DNA from: Candidatus Fermentibacterota bacterium | GTDB taxonomy: Bacteria; JAFGKV01 | Assembly: GCA_030620115.1 (NCBI GenBank) | Contig: JAUXFG010000160.1 | Coordinates: 1-8,580, forward strand | Direction of reading: 5' to 3' | DNA: 8,580 nucleotides | Shown: piece after piece, positions 862 to 8,580 of the stretch | Numbering within the stretch: position 1 is the stretch's first letter | Layout of the letters: each line of letters opens with the position of its first letter | Notes under the pieces: model-generated | Databases searched by the model: none | Seen by the model: the letters and a program-made list of their open reading frames with translations, nothing else | Told to the model about the DNA's origin: nothing | Translations under genes and position numbers: made by a program

Positions 862-1482
862 ATGCCCTGGCGTGTTTCCTGTCTTCTTCTGGCCGGGCTC
901 CTCCTTTCATGTGCCACCAGCCCAAACAGTCCGGACCCGGGCGTGCTCAAGCTTTACGTGACAGCCGACCTGGGTGATTTCTCTGTGGCCGAGAATGATA
1001 CGCTCTTCCTTCTGTTTTGGAATGAGCGGGCCTACAGGGACGACGGACTTTGGGCTGACGTGTACAATGCCTTGGAAGGAGAGCTTGCCAACCGGAACAT
1101 TGTGACCGACACGGTGGAGATACTCTCCGCCCGAGACGTCGAGAAAGGAGCTCGAATCGGGCTCTCTCATCTGCCGCCCGCGTGGTATGACAGCCTCACG
1201 CTGTCAGTCGATCATTTGGGCTACATTATTCTTGATGGCGTAAGGATACCCGTTTCCTCGGCCCTGGAGGAGCGCAGGACGGTTGTTCACTATCGCTTCG
1301 AGATACCGGAAAACGACACCACGGAGATCGTCTTGACATGCGACATCGACAGCTCGTTGGAACGGCATGGAGATGAGTTCAAGTTCACCCCCATCCTGAC
1401 TCCCCCGGCGTCACCGATTAATACTCCGACTACGATGCATGGAGACGAGTTCAAGTTCACCCCCATCCTGACGGTGGAGTAA
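862..1482 (+). CDS. DUF4382-like lipoprotein
   Basis: This encodes 206 residues. The start was placed at ATG 862 because GGAGG at 851-855 sits six bases before it and the product then begins with a lipoprotein signal: W3-R4, a hydrophobic run, and LLSC with the modifiable Cys17. An in-frame start at 790 would bury that signal behind 24 residues. The +2 residue is Ala, consistent with outer-membrane sorting by the usual rule. The mature protein looks beta-rich. Residues about 115-180 (DGVRIPVSS, then a DIDSS acidic strand, then GDEFKFTPIL) resemble the C-terminal half of DUF4382 proteins, which end in a similar DFD..S and G.Y...P. pattern. This is a by-eye match. The last strand motif HGDEFKFTPILT occurs twice, at residues 169-180 and 193-204, from a DNA duplication. 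No catalytic motif was seen. It is the first gene of the cluster, 29 bases before the next. Function unknown; probably a cell-surface or periplasm-facing accessory lipoprotein. Confidence 0.8.
   Translation: MPWRVSCLLLAGLLLSCATSPNSPDPGVLKLYVTADLGDFSVAENDTLFLLFWNERAYRDDGLWADVYNALEGELANRNIVTDTVEILSARDVEKGARIGLSHLPPAWYDSLTLSVDHLGYIILDGVRIPVSSALEERRTVVHYRFEIPENDTTEIVLTCDIDSSLERHGDEFKFTPILTPPASPINTPTTMHGDEFKFTPILTVE
1365..1472 (+). repeat. 36-bp direct repeat inside the first lipoprotein gene
   Basis: Bases 1365-1400 and 1437-1472 are identical except for one silent change (GAT against GAC, base 1374 against 1446). They are separated by 36 bases, so the period is 72 bases or 24 codons and the reading frame is kept. 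Each copy encodes HGDEFKFTPILT. The 36-base spacer encodes a Pro/Thr-rich linker (PPASPINTPTTM) and is not itself a copy. Confidence 0.95.
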
Positions 1483-1497
1483 GACATGTCACGCTCC

Positions 1498-1510
1498 AAG
1501 GAGGTGATCC
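1498..1510 (+). promoter_or_regulatory. Exceptionally long Shine-Dalgarno site for the GTG start at 1512
   Basis: AAGGAGGTGATCC matches 13 consecutive bases of the expected complement of the 16S rRNA 3' tail (GGATCACCTCCTT). The GGAGG core ends at 1504, seven bases before the GTG. It fixes the start of the second lipoprotein and may compensate for the weaker GTG codon. The other genes of the cluster have shorter matches. Confidence 0.85.
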
Positions 1511-1511
1511 T

Positions 1512-2930
1512 GTGAAACGGTTACTTATCGCGGCGCTGCCTCTGTTGTGGTTGATCGTCGGCTGTCAAGGCGATGACAATCTGAGCCCGAACCTCGCTCC
1601 AGAGACAAGCCTCGCCAATGTCCCCGTAGCCAATACGCCGGAGAATCCCTACCTGGCCGTGCTCACGCTGAGCTGGGATGGTGGGGACTCGGATGGCTAC
1701 GTGGTGGGATATGAATACAAATGGACTACCCATCATCTCATCCAAGGCGATTCGCTGGTGAATGATTGGCAATTCATCACCAAGGCAGAGAGCACTTTCG
1801 CGTTCGAGTCCTCTGACTCCGTCAATCTTCAGGCATTCTTGGTGCGAGCCAGGGATAATGACGGCGCGGTCGATCCGACACCAGCCTCGCTTTCGTTCTA
1901 TACCGCTCGTGTCATGGCGCCGGAAACGTACATCCTCGCCCCTGACAGCGGGTCCACTCTCTTCATCCTCTCCACGGAAACCGATTCATGGAGGGGCATC
2001 GTGTTCTCCTACTCGGGAGACGATCCAGATGGCGATGTTGCTGCCTATTCGTGGCAGATCGATGAACGAGACTGGTCGGATTGGACGGATATCAACGCCG
2101 TGACGCTGGTCAAGGGTGACTTCCCTGAACCAGTAGTTGGGCCGCATACTTTCAAGGTACGGGCCCGCGACAACACCCTGGTGGAAGACCCCACTCCCGC
2201 AGAAATCCAGTTTTACCTCGTCGAACCATCATTCGCCAAGAACCTGCTGGTGGTCGATGAAACCAAGGATGGCACAGGCAGCACCGAGAATCCAACTGAT
2301 GAAGAGGTTGATGACTTCTACGCCGCGGCGTTGGGAGGACATAGTTACGACAGTTGGGACTATGCGTCCGAGGGGCCCCCTCCAGTGGAGCTCCTCGGCG
2401 AATACCGGCTTGTGCTCTGGCACAGTGATGATTCCTCTCCCGATCTTGCTGAAGACCCGAGTTCGCTGGCCGCCTACCTCGACATAGGGGGTAAGTTGAT
2501 CATGGGAGGCAAGAAGATCTTGAGAACCATGGCAGGCAACACCAGTGGCGCCTTCGTGCAAGGCGACTTCGCCATGGACTATCTCCATATCAAGGAGTTC
2601 GACCACGAGGGCGGCACCATGTGGGTGGGAGGCGATGGAACCGGCGACTGGGAATGGGCCACCGTGCGACCCGACACCGCCAAACTCCGGTCAAACAGAA
2701 GAGGCAATCTCAATGAGGTAGATGCCTTTGATCCAAGCACCGTGTTCGCACATCCAATCCTTCTATTCAATCACTTCCGGGAGGACTCAACGTACCACTC
2801 CAGACCGTGTGCGTTGTTCTACGACGGCACAACCTATGATGCCGCGTACTTCGGGTTCCCCCTGTACTACACTCAAGCTGATCAGACCAGAGACCTGCTG
2901 GATGATCTCATCAGGAGGATGGGAGAATGA
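1512..2930 (+). CDS. Lipoprotein with two Ig/FN3-like repeats and a Rossmann/GATase-like domain
   Basis: This encodes 472 residues from GTG 1512, a start set by the strong ribosome site just before it. The product opens with KR, a hydrophobic run and IVGC, giving a lipoprotein with modified Cys18. Two tandem beta-sandwich repeats follow. Both begin with APET (near residues 29 and 136), contain an acidic DGG.SDG or DDPDGD strand followed by a W-containing strand, and end with VRARDN (111-116 and 216-221) and D.TPA...FY. They are about 105 residues apart and resemble the Ig/FN3 modules of FCB surface proteins. From about residue 243 comes an alpha/beta domain: NLLVVDE, WDYASEGPP, YRLVLWHSDD, LAAYLDIGGKLIMGG. 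This pattern is typical of the Rossmann or GATase1-like domain found in secreted proteins of these phyla; I see no catalytic Cys-His-Glu triad. Its stop overlaps the receptor start by four bases, implying coupled translation. A ligand-binding partner of the receptor is a reasonable guess, but it does not resemble SusD. Confidence 0.82.
   Translation: MKRLLIAALPLLWLIVGCQGDDNLSPNLAPETSLANVPVANTPENPYLAVLTLSWDGGDSDGYVVGYEYKWTTHHLIQGDSLVNDWQFITKAESTFAFESSDSVNLQAFLVRARDNDGAVDPTPASLSFYTARVMAPETYILAPDSGSTLFILSTETDSWRGIVFSYSGDDPDGDVAAYSWQIDERDWSDWTDINAVTLVKGDFPEPVVGPHTFKVRARDNTLVEDPTPAEIQFYLVEPSFAKNLLVVDETKDGTGSTENPTDEEVDDFYAAALGGHSYDSWDYASEGPPPVELLGEYRLVLWHSDDSSPDLAEDPSSLAAYLDIGGKLIMGGKKILRTMAGNTSGAFVQGDFAMDYLHIKEFDHEGGTMWVGGDGTGDWEWATVRPDTAKLRSNRRGNLNEVDAFDPSTVFAHPILLFNHFREDSTYHSRPCALFYDGTTYDAAYFGFPLYYTQADQTRDLLDDLIRRMGE
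2913..2930 (+). promoter_or_regulatory. ATGA overlap with internal Shine-Dalgarno (lipoprotein to receptor)
   Basis: AGGAGG at 2913-2918 lies within the end of the second lipoprotein gene, eight bases before ATG 2927. The receptor start and the lipoprotein stop share ATGA at 2927-2930. This arrangement favours re-initiation by the same ribosome and roughly matched synthesis of the two proteins. Confidence 0.75.
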
Positions 2931-5674
2931 TAGACCGGCAGTCGACCCGCAGTGTGCGATTCTCTTTCAAGAAGATTGTTTCGGATAGACTCAGGCTCTG
3001 TCTTCCCGTCGCCATCCTCCTTTTCATGAGCCTGCCTTCTACAGGAGTTGCGGGAGTATTCGGGAAGATAGCTGGTCGGGTCATCGATGCGCAGTCGAGG
3101 GATCCTTTGCCCAGTGTCGCAGTCTTCCTTGAAGGTACATCAATGGGCACCATGACCGACAACGACGGCCAGTACCACATGATTCAGGTTTCCCCGGGAA
3201 CCTACTCGCTCAGAGCAGAAAGGATCGGATACAGAACCGTTGTCAAGCATTCCCTTCTGGTCATGGCAGACCTTACCACCCGGGAGGATTTCGCGCTGGA
3301 GTCAGCACCAATAGAGATAGAACCGCTGGAGATTGTGGCGGAAAGACCGCTCATAGTCCTGGATGCCACGAGCAGTATCCGGTCTGCGTCCCGGGAAGAT
3401 GTTGAACGCCTTCCGAACATAAGAGACTTCCAAGACGTGGTGTCGCTTCAGCCCGGTACGGTGGGGGAGGGAAGCAGCATACATGTGCGCGGCGGCAGAA
3501 GCGGCGAGCTTCTGTACATGGTTGACGGCATCCCCATACGTCACCCCATCTATGGAGGTACGGCGGCACTGACCATCCCTGTGAAAGCCATCAAAGAGAT
3601 CGAAATACTCACCGGTGGCTTCAACGCGGAATATGGCAATGCGCAATCAGGTGTGGTCAATATTATCACCCGTGAGGGGACCAAGAGCTTCTCGGGGAGC
3701 GCTGAGTATCGCGCTGACCAGCCCGAGCTTTTCGATTCATGGAACACGGACGAGTTTGATCTGACAATGGGCGGCCCTGAGCCGGTCAGTACTCTTCTGC
3801 TCCCCCTGCTTGGCGTCCGTTTTCCGGGAAGTCTCTACTTCTTCCTGACCTCAAGCACTGAGCTCTCCGACACCTATCTACCCTGGGATGAGAGCCGATC
3901 GCCGCTGGAGCCCTTGGGAATCGACCTGGGAATGGACCAGCGTCAAAGCAACAAAGAGTTGCTCAACGGGAAGCTGACCTATGCATCCAAGGGTGGTCGG
4001 TTGAAGCTCGGGTTCGGCTTTCGTGGCGAGTGGCGACGCTATGACGCCTTTGACTGGGCATGGAGAGATATCCCGGATCGAACCATGGATTATCGACGCG
4101 ATTCGGATCAACAGACTTTTACCATGACCTACACACCGTATGAGAGGGCTTTCGGCACGTTGCGGCTCGGGAGACTTCATACCGCCTATCATGGAGACGT
4201 CAACGGCATGACGCCTCCGGAATACTGGGAAGAGAACAACGAGCGGAAGTACACCTGGTATCGCGACACCGATGGCGACGGTTTCCAGGAAGGAGATTCC
4301 TCGGAGCCCGATGATCCCGACCCGCGTGGCGCCATCCAGATGAGATGGAGGGATGATCAGTCCGACGTATATACCGCCAAACTCGACGTCACCTCCCAAG
4401 TGACGCCGATTCATCTTGTGAAGGCAGGTGTTGAGGTCAACGATCATGACGTACGTTACGTGGATCTCCAATATATCGGATGGCTCTACACCGAAGGCAG
4501 AGACAGCTTGCCGGGCCCGTGGCCCGAATACGGCCTCTACCGATGGTACTTTGAGGGAGCGCCCCTGACCGCGGCCGCCTATATCCAGGACAAGATGGAG
4601 TTTGAGGGGCTCATCGTGAATGCCGGCGTTCGCATGGATCTCATCCGGCCGGGAAGCGCATTCAAGGACTCGGCGTATCAGGCCATGTGGGAAGCCGTCA
4701 CGGATATGGACCTCGAGCTCAAAGAGACTACCACGATCTTCTCGCCGCGCCTCGGTATCTCTCACCCGGTCACGGAGAAGATGGTGATGTACTTCTCCTA
4801 TGGGAGATTCACCCAATTCCCGGAATTGCAGTACTACTACCGTGACCCATGGACGGGAACCTGGGTGGGTAATCCGAACCTCAAGCCTGAGCGGACCACG
4901 AGCTACGAATACGGCTTTGCGTATGAGATCATCCCGAATATCGGCGTGGACATCAAGGGTTTCGCGAAAGACATGAGGGACTATGTCGGTCAGATACGTG
5001 TGGGCGATCCGCCGATGTCATTGTGGACCAATCTTGGATACGGAAGCGCGAGGGGCATCGAGCTCCAGCTCCGGAAACGATACAGTGGCTATGTTGCGGG
5101 AAATATCAGCTACACCTATCAGTATGCATTGGGCTATTCGAACAGCGCCTATCTCGCCTACGATTATAACGCCGGAGAACGGGATCCTATTCGCGAAAGC
5201 CGACTCAACTGGGATCAACGTCACTCCATAACCGCAAATGTGGAGTTTCGAGTACCCGACGGGGATCATCCTTGCGTACTTGGCATGACGCTGCCCGATG
5301 ACTGGTCGCTTTCCTTGCTCTGGAAGTATGGCTCAGGGTTGCCTTATACGCCCCTCCCGCAGGGTCTGATCCCTGAGACCAATACGGCAACGGCCCCCCA
5401 TACCAGTATCCTCGATCTTCATCTCGAGCGTTCCTTCCGCTTCGTGGGAACGAAACTCACGCTCCTGTGCGATGTCCTGAACGTCCTCGACAATGAAAAT
5501 GTCACCGATCATGGTGCATTCTTCAATGCGTACGAAGGACGGCCGTACGTCTACGGAGACGAGGATGGCGATTCCGGGCGAATCATTGCCCACAAAAACA
5601 TCGAATACCGCCTGAGCCCATCGCGTTTCGGTTCACCACGGACCGCGCGCCTTGGACTCCGGTTCTCATGGTAG
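2927..5674 (+). CDS. TonB-dependent receptor with carboxypeptidase-regulatory-like N-terminal domain
   Basis: This encodes 915 residues forming an energised outer-membrane transporter. A basic N-terminus and hydrophobic segment (about 22-43, ending near GVAG) form the signal peptide. Residues 46-126 are a carboxypeptidase-regulatory-like beta-sandwich: AGRVIDAQSRDPLPSVAV, then T.T.NDGQY, then PGTYSLRAERIGYR. A TonB-box-like stretch, IEPLEIVAERP, sits at 131-141. The plug follows to about 250, with HVRGGRSGE (186-194), VDGIP (199-203) and GNAQSGVVNII (237-247). The remainder is a barrel rich in alternating aromatic strands, with DVLNVLDN (849-856) near the end and a terminal RFSW, an outer-membrane beta-signal ending in an aromatic. 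An acidic DTDGDGFQEGD loop (447-457) could bind calcium. Length fits the SusC/RagA-like class. The substrate is not evident and no SusD gene is adjacent. The gene is intact. Confidence 0.92.
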   Translation: MIDRQSTRSVRFSFKKIVSDRLRLCLPVAILLFMSLPSTGVAGVFGKIAGRVIDAQSRDPLPSVAVFLEGTSMGTMTDNDGQYHMIQVSPGTYSLRAERIGYRTVVKHSLLVMADLTTREDFALESAPIEIEPLEIVAERPLIVLDATSSIRSASREDVERLPNIRDFQDVVSLQPGTVGEGSSIHVRGGRSGELLYMVDGIPIRHPIYGGTAALTIPVKAIKEIEILTGGFNAEYGNAQSGVVNIITREGTKSFSGSAEYRADQPELFDSWNTDEFDLTMGGPEPVSTLLLPLLGVRFPGSLYFFLTSSTELSDTYLPWDESRSPLEPLGIDLGMDQRQSNKELLNGKLTYASKGGRLKLGFGFRGEWRRYDAFDWAWRDIPDRTMDYRRDSDQQTFTMTYTPYERAFGTLRLGRLHTAYHGDVNGMTPPEYWEENNERKYTWYRDTDGDGFQEGDSSEPDDPDPRGAIQMRWRDDQSDVYTAKLDVTSQVTPIHLVKAGVEVNDHDVRYVDLQYIGWLYTEGRDSLPGPWPEYGLYRWYFEGAPLTAAAYIQDKMEFEGLIVNAGVRMDLIRPGSAFKDSAYQAMWEAVTDMDLELKETTTIFSPRLGISHPVTEKMVMYFSYGRFTQFPELQYYYRDPWTGTWVGNPNLKPERTTSYEYGFAYEIIPNIGVDIKGFAKDMRDYVGQIRVGDPPMSLWTNLGYGSARGIELQLRKRYSGYVAGNISYTYQYALGYSNSAYLAYDYNAGERDPIRESRLNWDQRHSITANVEFRVPDGDHPCVLGMTLPDDWSLSLLWKYGSGLPYTPLPQGLIPETNTATAPHTSILDLHLERSFRFVGTKLTLLCDVLNVLDNENVTDHGAFFNAYEGRPYVYGDEDGDSGRIIAHKNIEYRLSPSRFGSPRTARLGLRFSW

Positions 5675-5678
5675 GAGG
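5672..5678 (+). promoter_or_regulatory. Stop codon fused to Shine-Dalgarno, TAGGAGG
   Basis: The receptor's TAG stop forms the first three bases of TAGGAGG, whose GGAGG core ends nine bases before ATG 5688. The same heptamer, with the same preceding G, recurs at the next junction. It also selects 5688 over the upstream in-frame ATG 5652, which lies inside the receptor gene and would add 12 residues before the signal peptide. Confidence 0.75.
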
Positions 5679-5687
5679 TTGGGTATC

Positions 5688-7514
5688 ATGAAACGCACGT
5701 ACAGATTCCTGATCCTCATGTGTCTGATCATACCCGCACTGGTGGCCGCCCAACAGAGACCACCCATCCACGTGAAGTATCAAGATGTCAGCAATGTCAG
5801 ACTTCAGGTCACCAACATGGGTGGGATTACCCGATGGGGTCTCCCGGTGGACTGGAAACGAATGGTGTGCGAGTGGCCACAAGGCACGTTCATGGAGCAC
5901 ATCAATGGCGCGGGAATTCGCTTGGGCGCCATGGTCGATGGCGTGCCGCATGTCTCATGGGGATACGCGGAATATGCCGGATTCTCCAAATGCTTCCCCA
6001 GCTACGATCCTGCGGACACCATATGGGAGGCAAGCAGCTACCTCCCCCTTCCCGAGGGATTGACCGACATGTATCCTGGCTATGAAGCCAAGAGCGAGCT
6101 CGACTTCATTTGTCAGTATTGGGACGATATCGTAGAACGACCTGAGCATGTTCCGCTCCACATCCATTTCATACAGAGAACGTATTCGTGGAGTTATGAT
6201 CCCCTCTTCAATATCGTCTATATGGATTACGACATTATCTGCGAAAACGAAGATGGGCTGGATTCTGTATATATCGCCTATTTCTTCGACGCGGATGTCG
6301 GTAAATTCGAAACGGAAGACGATTTTAACTTCTTTTGGGATGACTATAGCTGGTACGATGAGGATGAACGTTTGGCGGTGACCCAGGATGCTCCCGGCGG
6401 TGCTGATGGAGATGCCAATTCAGGTGTTGCCATCAAGCTGCTTCGGGCACCCGGGGACATGAGTGAGCTCACCTTCACTTTTCGCACCGGCCACCGTGAT
6501 GATGTGGACGACCCATTGGACCGGGGAAAGTACGAGAAGATGTCCGAGGGGATTATCATGCCGAGCATGACGCCTGGCGAAGCGACCCAGACCGCCTTTC
6601 TTTTTGGCTTTGGGCCGTTCACCATGGCCTATGGCGATACGCTCCTCATGACATTCGCTCTCACCTGCGGCCACGACGAGAATGAGATCCGGCAAAACGC
6701 CGAAATCGCGCAGTGGCTCTATGACCAAAACTGGGCCTCCCCGAATCCCCCTCCACCCCCACCGCTGAGGGGTTATCCGGGCGACCACCGCGCCATTCTT
6801 TCGTGGCATGTAGGAGAGGGCGACGTCAACCCCGAAACGTACGAGGATACGCTTCGTCTTGACGGCATATTTCAGGACTTCGAGGGTTATCGCGTCTACA
6901 AGAGTGCGGGCAACCGGGCTGGTCCCTGGACGCTCCTGGCGGAATACGACAAACCCGACGATATCTGGGGCAATAACCTCGGTCTTTCCTACGAATTCAC
7001 TGATGACGGCCTTGTGAACGGAACGAGATACTACTACGCAGTTACTTCCTTCGACATGCCGGATACCGTACTCAAGTATCCTTCCTTGGAAGGCGGCATT
7101 ACGCGGAATGTAGTCACTGTGGTGCCGGGAACCCCTCCCGACGAGTCAGGCGATCTCAATGTCTGGGTGGTTCCGAACCCCTACAGGGCCGACGCCGGCT
7201 ATACAGCGCCGGCCGGAGAAGTACGACCTCCAGGCGCTGATTGGGAATGGCCACTCGAAGAGGGACGTGGTTGGGTGGAACACGACCGGAAGATCCAGTT
7301 CGTCAATCTCCCACCCCGCTGTACGATCCGGATATTCACCCTGTCGGGCGATCTGGTAGACACCATTCATCATGATGATCCTGATGCGGGTTACGAGGAT
7401 TGGCATCTCATCTCCCGCGTGGCTCAAGCCATTGCCAGCGAGCTCTACCTGTTCACCGTCGAAGACCTCGACACCGGCAAGACACAGGTCGGCAAGTTCG
7501 TGGTCATCAAGTAG
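5688..7514 (+). CDS. Exported multidomain protein with FN3 and FlgD/type IX-like C-terminal domain
   Basis: This encodes 608 residues. MKR, a hydrophobic stretch and VAA|QQ give a Sec signal peptide cleaved near residue 21. The N-terminal half (about 27-350) is a beta-rich module with NVRLQVTNMGGI (36-47) and CEWPQGTFMEHINGAGIRLG (61-80). I recall this pattern from unnamed surface proteins of KSB1- and Marinimicrobia-type genomes. Six consecutive prolines (354-359) link it to an FN3-like domain (about 361-478) with YRVYKSAG (401-408) and YYYAVTSFD (448-456). The C-terminal part (489-608) has VVPNPY, KIQFVNLP, CTIRIFTLSGDLVDTI (545-560), WHLISR (572-577) and a final GKFVVIK. This is the FlgD Ig-like fold shared with type IX sorting domains. 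The usual ASG turn before the penultimate strand reads ASE (583-585). It lies between the receptor and a PorV-like gene, so it could be a surface cargo or a receptor partner. No enzyme motif was recognised. Confidence 0.82.
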   Translation: MKRTYRFLILMCLIIPALVAAQQRPPIHVKYQDVSNVRLQVTNMGGITRWGLPVDWKRMVCEWPQGTFMEHINGAGIRLGAMVDGVPHVSWGYAEYAGFSKCFPSYDPADTIWEASSYLPLPEGLTDMYPGYEAKSELDFICQYWDDIVERPEHVPLHIHFIQRTYSWSYDPLFNIVYMDYDIICENEDGLDSVYIAYFFDADVGKFETEDDFNFFWDDYSWYDEDERLAVTQDAPGGADGDANSGVAIKLLRAPGDMSELTFTFRTGHRDDVDDPLDRGKYEKMSEGIIMPSMTPGEATQTAFLFGFGPFTMAYGDTLLMTFALTCGHDENEIRQNAEIAQWLYDQNWASPNPPPPPPLRGYPGDHRAILSWHVGEGDVNPETYEDTLRLDGIFQDFEGYRVYKSAGNRAGPWTLLAEYDKPDDIWGNNLGLSYEFTDDGLVNGTRYYYAVTSFDMPDTVLKYPSLEGGITRNVVTVVPGTPPDESGDLNVWVVPNPYRADAGYTAPAGEVRPPGADWEWPLEEGRGWVEHDRKIQFVNLPPRCTIRIFTLSGDLVDTIHHDDPDAGYEDWHLISRVAQAIASELYLFTVEDLDTGKTQVGKFVVIK

Positions 7515-7518
7515 GAGG
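7512..7518 (+). promoter_or_regulatory. Stop codon fused to Shine-Dalgarno, TAGGAGG (second case)
   Basis: The TAG stop of the multidomain protein runs directly into GGAGG, which continues as AGGGA before ATG 7527. The GTAGGAGG 8-mer is the same as at 5671-5678. A ribosome ending translation would cover the next start signal, which suits coupled translation of the last three genes. Confidence 0.75.
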
Positions 7519-7526
7519 AGGGAACG

Positions 7527-8453
7527 ATGAGAACACTGAAGCTTCTATTGATTCTGGGGCTGTTCCCTGCTCTGCTCCTTGCCGATCAGCCTCGGGTGGG
7601 CAGCACCACAGGCCAGATCCTCAAGCTTAACACGTCTGCGCGGAGCTCCGCCTTGGGAGGGGCATTCCTCGCACTGGCGGACGACCCGGCCGCCGCCTTC
7701 TACAACCCCGCGGGCCTGGTGAGATTGGAGGGCAATCAGGTCCTCCTGACCCACACGATGTTGCCCGCGGACATCTCTTATGAATGCGGGGCTGCATCCT
7801 TCAAGGTGAATGAAACCAACACGCTTGGTTTCACTTTCGGCGGTCTCTACACCGACGAGATGGACGTGACTACGCCATACCATCCCGGAGGCACAGGCGA
7901 GACATTCGTCTACAGCGCATTCCATGGAGGGCTCAGCTTCGGCCGGTGGATGACCGACCGTTTCTCCTTTGGGGCCGGAGTGCGTTACCTGCGGATCAAT
8001 CTGATGGACTCAGAGTATACCGTGGACACATGGAACGGCTATCTGGGCAGCCTCTATGATGTCGGCTATCGCGACACGAGATTCGGTGTGGTGATCGGGA
8101 ACTTCGGCCCCGACATTGAATTCATATCAGAGGCCTATGGCCAGCCGCTATTCATCTCCGTCGGCGTGCTGACCCGAGGATACGCCGCAGGTGATCATCA
8201 TCTCGACTTCATGGCTGAAGCCTCAAAACCCAAGGATACTACTGAACAGTACACCATGGGTGCTGAGTACTGGTACCGGGGTCTGCTGGCCTTGAGGACC
8301 GGATATCGATTCGGGCACGATAGCCTCTCATGGGCAGGTGGATTGGGAATCAACATCGGATCGGGGGATGTAGCCTTCCGCCTGGACTATGCGTACGTTG
8401 ATATGGATCTGCTGGGCGAGAATCACCAGATTTCGCTGACCGCAGCATTCTAG
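7527..8453 (+). CDS. PorV/PorQ-family outer-membrane barrel protein
   Basis: This encodes 308 residues with a signal peptide ending near LLLA|DQ (residue 19). The diagnostic block is at 37-64: SARSSALGGAFLAL, then ADDPAAAFYNPAGL. This is the conserved N-terminal signature of PorV/PorQ and UPF0164 proteins, related in fold to FadL-type barrels. The rest alternates short glycine- and aromatic-rich strands (FSFGAGVRYLRI, ALRTGYRFG, FRLDYAYVDMDLLG) and ends in LTAAF, an outer-membrane beta-signal. In type IX secretion PorV binds the C-terminal domain of cargo and delivers it for surface attachment. Many paralogues in FCB relatives have no proven role, so secretion is inferred from the neighbouring FlgD-like domain. 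It is the last gene of the cluster, 12 bases after its neighbour and followed at once by a stem-loop. Confidence 0.87.
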   Translation: MRTLKLLLILGLFPALLLADQPRVGSTTGQILKLNTSARSSALGGAFLALADDPAAAFYNPAGLVRLEGNQVLLTHTMLPADISYECGAASFKVNETNTLGFTFGGLYTDEMDVTTPYHPGGTGETFVYSAFHGGLSFGRWMTDRFSFGAGVRYLRINLMDSEYTVDTWNGYLGSLYDVGYRDTRFGVVIGNFGPDIEFISEAYGQPLFISVGVLTRGYAAGDHHLDFMAEASKPKDTTEQYTMGAEYWYRGLLALRTGYRFGHDSLSWAGGLGINIGSGDVAFRLDYAYVDMDLLGENHQISLTAAF

Positions 8454-8455
8454 TC

Positions 8456-8497
8456 AGAACGGGAGATCGGGTACAGCCGCACCCGGTCTCCCGTTCT
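8456..8497 (+). terminator. 17-bp stem-loop ending the cluster
   Basis: Bases 8456-8472 pair with 8481-8497 along their full 17 bases, with one T-G wobble, around the 8-base loop ACAGCCGC. The stem starts two bases after the last stop. It lacks the T-run of a classical intrinsic terminator (GTTGC follows), so it may instead protect the 3' end or work with another factor. The position strongly supports the end of the transcript. Confidence 0.75.
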
Positions 8498-8504
8498 GTT
8501 GCAA

Positions 8505-8580
8505 GGGTTCAGGGTTCGGTGTTCAGGGGGGATCGCGGCCAGGGATCAGATTCTTCCTGAACCCTGAACCCCGAACCCCC
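8505..8580. repeat. Inverted CTGAACC-type heptamers with embedded dispersed element, right copy
   Basis: GGGTTCAGGGTTC at 8505-8517 is the exact reverse complement of GAACCCTGAACCC at 8559-8571, so this margin can fold back on itself. The right arm continues as CCCGAACC-type units to the window end and may run beyond it. Inside, 8522-8564 is the inverted relative of 344-390. AGATTCTT at 8548-8555 also echoes the arm of the repeat at 6-15. No coding sequence is visible after 8453. Confidence 0.7.

Follow-up and report, generated by a model that had tools for sequence, protein, structure and literature searches.

The stretch of DNA analyzed here, referred to as the window, is an 8,580-nucleotide contig (JAUXFG010000160.1, NCBI GenBank assembly GCA_030620115.1) of a Candidatus Fermentibacterota bacterium, and constitutes the whole of contig C262 in a 4.1-Mb metagenome-assembled genome that is 98% complete (G, C, and L numbers designate our genomes, contigs, and loci; the genome of the window is G000). 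Five genes lie on one strand, with spacings of 29, -4, 13, and 12 bases, and encode two lipoproteins (lpp1 and lpp2), a TonB-dependent receptor, an exported protein with a C-terminal sorting-type domain (CTD; S protein, gene 4), and a PorV-family outer-membrane barrel (gene 5). This layout of five exported products closed by a 3' stem-loop (Table 1), first given in a preliminary description made from the sequence alone, was borne out by the reading frames, lipoboxes, domain scans, and folding. The module considered below has the receptor, the CTD protein, and the PorV-family barrel as its core, and co-oriented complete sets in this order are termed triads.

Table 1 Features of the window, in order of position
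Feature	Position	Strand	Evidence
lpp1, small exported lipoprotein, 206 aa	862..1482	+	ATG start, lipobox LLSC
Direct repeat, near-exact, 32 bases (1369-1400 and 1441-1472)	1369..1472	+	two matches, none in 200 shuffles
lpp2, lipoprotein, 472 aa	1512..2930	+	GTG start, lipobox IVGC
GATase1-like C-terminal domain of lpp2, residues 242-472	2235..2927	+	VIA Z 15-17.5
TonB-dependent receptor (gene 3), 915 aa	2927..5674	+	Pfam matches over cut-off
S protein (gene 4), exported CTD protein, 608 aa	5688..7514	+	signal peptide by eye; conserved family
N-terminal super-beta-sandwich of S protein, residues ~24-350	5757..6737	+	VIA Z 17-20
C-terminal sorting-type domain of S protein, subtype S2, residues ~489-608	7152..7511	+	CTD alignment, subtype statistics
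PorV-family outer-membrane barrel (gene 5), 308 aa	7527..8453	+	NF033709 over cut-off
Stem-loop, 18-base arms, terminator-like, no T-run	8455..8498	+	folding vs. shuffles

Gene 3 carries a CarboxypepD_reg domain, a plug, and a beta-barrel, all above the Pfam cut-offs (PF07715 51 bits, PF00593 93 bits), the latter two identifying it as a TonB-dependent receptor; its score for the SusC/RagA model TIGR04056 was 69.4 bits (cut-off 368). The lack of SusD that had been noted for the window proved to be genome-wide, as SusD/RagB (PF07980) was found nowhere in the whole genome, with a control genome giving a match, and was likewise missing from 12 of the 13 further genomes searched.

The product of gene 5 matched the PorV/PorQ family NF033709 over residues 27-308 with 148.7 bits (cut-off 90), reached 47 bits for the canonical PorV equivalog NF033710 (cut-off 250), and had no match to PF19572. 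It also scored 30.8 bits against PF03349 (OMPP1/FadL/TodX), barely above the cut-off of 29.7, although the profile of the triad PorVs is far nearer to PorV, with E 1.8e-35 for the PorV of the SprA translocon (6h3i_F) and E 1.2e-6 for TodX. In a tree of 84 PorV-family proteins, the TonB-linked PorVs formed one clade of 65 members (support 100/99) that includes gene 5 and takes in all the PorVs of triads, of variant gene orders, and of cut triads. The canonical PorVs formed a separate group (support 100/95), and are encoded beside PorU-type or M6-type genes. Two additional arrangements of the family were seen: a PorV-family domain beside a PorU-type gene, where frame lengths of 820 and 893 aa imply a large extra part (L216 in G005:C34 and L217 in G011:C22), and a longer second PorV-family gene (506-521 aa) situated right after the triad PorV in G047 (L092, L093, and L227).

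No Pfam match was obtained for the S protein. Its structure model (predicted local distance difference test, pLDDT, 86.5) consists of an N-terminal super-beta-sandwich, an Fn3-like domain, and a tail. The sandwich superimposes on the non-catalytic domain of glucoamylase and of glycoside hydrolase (GH) family GH94 and GH116 enzymes over 230-275 residues (rmsd 2.9-4.3; VIA Z in Table 1). The protein begins with a signal peptide; its conserved, beta-rich C-terminus, which ends in GKFVVIK, can be aligned with other type IX CTD-like tails, and the last 77 residues weakly resemble the C-terminal domain of PorZ (E 0.0084, under the cut-off). The S protein did not match the type A CTD models TIGR04183 and PF18962 at E 1, and genes 4 and 5 remained unmatched at E 1 by the type B CTD model TIGR04131 and the PorP/SprF model in the NCBIfam scan. 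Two tail profiles were built, S2 for the tail of the triads and S1 for a FlgD-like tail that is frequent in the same loci; several S1 tails do pass TIGR04183 or PF18962. All 42 triad tails scored at least 16 bits higher with S2 than with S1. A PorV gene lay directly 3' of 47 of 57 S2 tails vs. 7 of 58 S1 tails (Fisher p 6e-15, loci that built the S2 profile being excluded; as the loci are related, the p value is a guide only). The CTD of the triad is thus a distinct subtype linked to PorV neighbours. Among solved structures, S1 found FlgD, PorU, and the type IX CTD substrates of SprA structures, some of them weakly, while S2 found only PorU, weakly. The idea that S2 corresponds to the tail of the uncleaved PorU was dropped because the PorU tails of these genomes are S1-like (those beside canonical PorV score 45-65 bits with S1 and 12-26 with S2). 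Exclusivity of S2 to the triad was rejected too, since Zixibacteria commonly encode S2 proteins in tandem away from any PorV or TonB gene.

The recurrence of the module was examined in 60 related genomes, which were searched with the PorV model as well as with the receptor and CTD proteins. Complete triads, co-oriented and running from the receptor through the CTD protein to PorV, were found 46 times in 12 genomes, with up to 12 per genome, totals that overstate the frequency given that some of the counted stretches had been selected by receptor or CTD matches; the gaps, taken from the first 33 triads, were mostly < 50 bases. The window's own genome is free of this selection bias, and there five of the six PorV genes above the cut-off sit in TonB receptor clusters. 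A second set of 78 loci, found with the CTD alignment alone as query, contained 11 triads, distributed over genomes named as Zixibacteria, UBP14, Cloacimonetes, KSB1, WOR-3, Eisenbacteria, and unnamed bacteria; two of these triads, L127 and L138, had been counted before as loci of G005 and G002. Another gene order (CTD protein, second CTD protein, lpp2-family lipoprotein, receptor, PorV) was seen on C237 of the window's own genome, in Ignavibacteriales, and in G003 and G047, as well as in two Flavobacteriales loci, where an untyped gene occupies the second place. Across the 46 triads, the distance matrices correlated at 0.91 (receptor and CTD protein), 0.82 (receptor and PorV), and 0.79 (CTD protein and PorV), as compared with 0.30-0.36 after shuffling partners within genomes, and none of 2000 shuffles reached the observed values; for pairs within genomes the correlations were 0.94, 0.93, and 0.86. 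The three core genes therefore remain together and diverge together.

The two lipoproteins differ in how far they follow this core. The lpp1 protein has no Pfam match and a single weak relative (BLASTP E 1e-5, 88 columns), encoded immediately 5' of the TonB receptor in G056:C15, and is a poorly conserved accessory. The model of lpp2 (pLDDT 87.4) comprises two Fn3-like domains and a GATase1-like domain; Foldseek alone returned mostly Fn3 domains, and the C-terminal domain came from VIA, which aligned it with the corresponding domain of GH42 enzymes and with GATase1-like proteins. The lipobox cysteine is invariant across 26 aligned members of the lpp2 family, and for 27 of its 32 members a PorV gene lies no more than three genes away, many of these loci having been picked for the module. 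Relatives of all five window families occur together, in another order, in G056:C15. The conserved co-occurrence of five families in one order, which the preliminary description had proposed to look for, applies to the core and largely to lpp2, but the order of five genes was seen only in the window, whose gene set is one form that a wider module takes.

The preliminary description had further stated that no type IX core gene is present, which is correct for the window but not for the genome. SprA is encoded there, split over C28 and C277 (C28 giving 370 bits, with neighbours, for a cut-off of 200), a canonical PorV is located on C58, and the C25 peptidases, the family of PorU, gave 19 matches. 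Since SprA, a canonical PorV, and C25 peptidases are all present, a type IX-like outer-membrane route exists, and the unit is not independent of type IX secretion. The type IX motor proteins GldL and GldM, in their Bacteroidota form, gave no match in the same genome (see below), but strong matches in the positive controls G060 and G061, Flavobacteriales with a variant module. The same combination, with SprA, PorV, and C25 peptidases present and Bacteroidota-type GldL and GldM not detected, was observed in G000, G001, G002, G047, G053, G056, and G057.

In relatives, the module has neighbours that encode GH2, GH43, GH5, alpha-amylase, GH106, alginate lyase, chondroitinase B, and rhamnogalacturonan lyase, several of them with type IX tails. 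For instance, G056:C15 also holds GH2, GH43, and GH5 genes. The neighbourhoods of canonical PorV served as a control, and the 25 families listed for them (a list that leaves out single-member families and is therefore incomplete) include no GH or polysaccharide lyase family except a carrageenase-named beta-propeller domain. In addition, the structure models show that the S protein and lpp2 are made of carbohydrate-enzyme-type domains.

Taken together, we lean slightly towards interpreting the module as a SusD-free surface uptake unit, in which a CTD capture protein anchored by a barrel serves a TonB importer. The steps that we infer, from export via SprA through the anchoring of the S protein and the formation of a complex to its substrate and the import of glycans, are the following. 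The S protein would leave the cell via Sec and the SprA translocon encoded elsewhere in the genome, and would be taken up by the co-encoded PorV-type barrel, which, rather than passing it to PorU, would keep it bound and uncleaved as its surface anchor. Positioned beside or over the TonB receptor, it could act as the capture subunit, the lipoproteins being probable accessories, and the receptor would use TonB energy to import the ligand, probably an oligosaccharide. Overall, such a unit would resemble SusCD with the SusD lipoprotein swapped for a barrel-anchored CTD protein. A dedicated complex, as suggested in the preliminary description, is plausible, and that description is partly supported; lpp1 has only one weak relative, and type IX genes are situated elsewhere in the genome.

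Several observations weigh against this proposal. GldL and GldM, which would power the type IX route, had no match in the genome of the window, although remote homologues could escape such a search. Linked inheritance yields correlated trees without any contact between the products. The S2 tail does not need a neighbouring barrel, as Zixibacteria (L142, L153, L161, L166, and L198) encode tandems of three to four S2-tail proteins of ~850-900 aa without PorV or TonB genes nearby, and two S2 proteins of this kind are found on C211 of the window's own genome. In the triads of G057 (L100, L102, L103, L242, and L243), the PorVs are 85-98% identical, in comparison with ~65% for the receptors and 52-55% for the S proteins, and hence the barrels are not matched to individual S proteins; these PorVs look as if homogenized by gene conversion, and their near-identity fits a stoichiometric anchor better than a cargo-tuned partner. 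Finally, no carbohydrate enzyme was recognized near the window copy or near its paralogues within the genome, where only a sub-threshold CBM_20 occurs, beside the copy on C7.

This last point favours the best-surviving alternative, rather unlikely in our view, that the module handles non-glycans such as peptides or metal chelates, or serves surface assembly or signalling without import. Function is not shown by fold similarity, and the receptor also weakly matches models of metal, heme, and B12 receptors; on the other hand, glycoside hydrolases and polysaccharide lyases adjoin the module in relatives, and one such locus (G056:C15) is the one with relatives of all five window families. Less probable still is a role of the PorV paralogue as a dedicated shuttle and nothing else, which would carry the S protein from SprA to PorU, where the CTD would be cleaved and the protein put on lipopolysaccharide, with the receptor co-regulated and outside any complex. 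The PorV of Bacteroidota indeed shuttles type A CTDs (PMC12618676, PMC10202324), C25 peptidases are abundant in the genome, and the triad PorV profile matches the SprA-bound PorV. However, one PorV handles all type A CTDs in the species studied (PMC12618676), so that a barrel per cargo would be unneeded, and the receptor and S protein distances correlate as tightly as those of any pair. That the barrel is a FadL/TodX-like hydrophobic channel in a cluster for the import of lipids or hydrocarbons appears very improbable, as the marginal Pfam score has to be set against the much stronger PorV-family match, the difference between the PorV and TodX profile matches, and the constant presence of CTD proteins next to the barrel. 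Chance neighbourhood without a common function, for which nothing speaks except the variable fourth and fifth genes, is practically negligible, being refuted by the recurrence across phyla and opposed by the short gaps, the co-divergence, the PorV clade, and the linkage of S2 with PorV.

The remaining features of the window concern its ends and the lpp1 gene. The copies of the direct repeat in lpp1 are 40 bases apart and double the last 12 residues of the protein (HGDEFKFTPILT). The stem-loop after gene 5 has a folding energy of -35.2 kcal/mol (z -7.5, equalled by 0 of 200 shuffles). A mechanical promoter scan gave a number of sites not above that in shuffles, and a search for a plasmid origin returned no match. 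Positions 8204-8580 are 92.8% identical to a contig end of the same genome (L071, G000:C32, 3075-3437), which carries the same PorV C-terminus and stem-loop followed by a gene for a 902-aa protein; this end is either a strain variant or a recent duplicate of the window end, and the gene for the 902-aa protein is likely the next one downstream of the window's unit. Short dispersed repeats occur in the flanks 1-860 and 8499-8580 (CCTGAACCCTGAA; CTGTCATTCTGAGCGA...GAAGAATCT), and are possibly the reason why the contig breaks at these ends.

Among known systems, the SusCD pairs of Bacteroidota share with the module a CarboxypepD_reg TonB receptor with an exported surface partner, the presence of many copies per genome, and, in some relatives, the adjoining glycan-degrading enzymes. 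They differ in that the module's genome lacks SusD, its receptor scores far under the SusC/RagA cut-off, and the place of the partner is taken by a CTD protein with its PorV-type barrel. A single PorV serves every type A tail in Flavobacterium, whereas each type B tail has its own PorP/SprF barrel, which is often encoded directly 3' of the type B CTD gene and also anchors the tail (PMC12618676, PMC9143113). The module resembles such pairs (SprB-SprF, PG1035-PorP) in having its own PorV-like barrel gene directly 3' of the CTD gene and in occurring many times per genome, but its barrel belongs to the PorV/PorQ family, its unit includes a TonB receptor, and the only, weak matches of its tail are to the tails of PorZ and PorU. 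These two proteins retain their tails and remain bound to PorQ and PorV in the attachment complex (PMC10202324), so that there, too, a PorV/PorQ-family barrel keeps an uncleaved CTD protein at the surface, as is proposed for the module; PorZ-PorQ and PorU-PorV are, however, single copies for cargo processing rather than many TonB-tied paralogues, and the PorU tails of these genomes score as S1, those of the module as S2. The same review suggests that cognate PorV-like barrels shield tails from cleavage, and the module would fit this logic of retention by a barrel, with a PorV clade and an added TonB receptor. In gene order, it recalls the xylan locus Rmar_1069-1073 of the cultured Rhodothermus marinus (TonB receptor, CTD protein Rmar_1071, hypothetical protein Rmar_1072, CTD protein Rmar_1073), the first part of which is predicted to be co-transcribed with a xylanase, PorV going unmentioned in that paper (PMC6987092). 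No description of such clusters was found in open-access papers, subscription papers and preprints being outside our reach.

More tentatively, the module could represent a further TonB-driven architecture for glycan capture, widespread in SusD-less candidate phyla related to Bacteroidota, in which the S protein is held by a barrel of the PorV clade and some genomes carry about ten or more paralogues, as with SusCD in Bacteroides. If this is true, it would explain polymer uptake by uncultured bacteria that lack SusD, and would give a reason for the abundant PorV-family genes in their genomes. The rule that each CTD protein has one barrel, as is known of type B tails, would then reach a PorV clade, and a testable connection between type IX secretion and TonB import would be provided. 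As the family is recognizable by sequence, many genes now annotated as hypothetical or as PorV/PorQ family could be better annotated.

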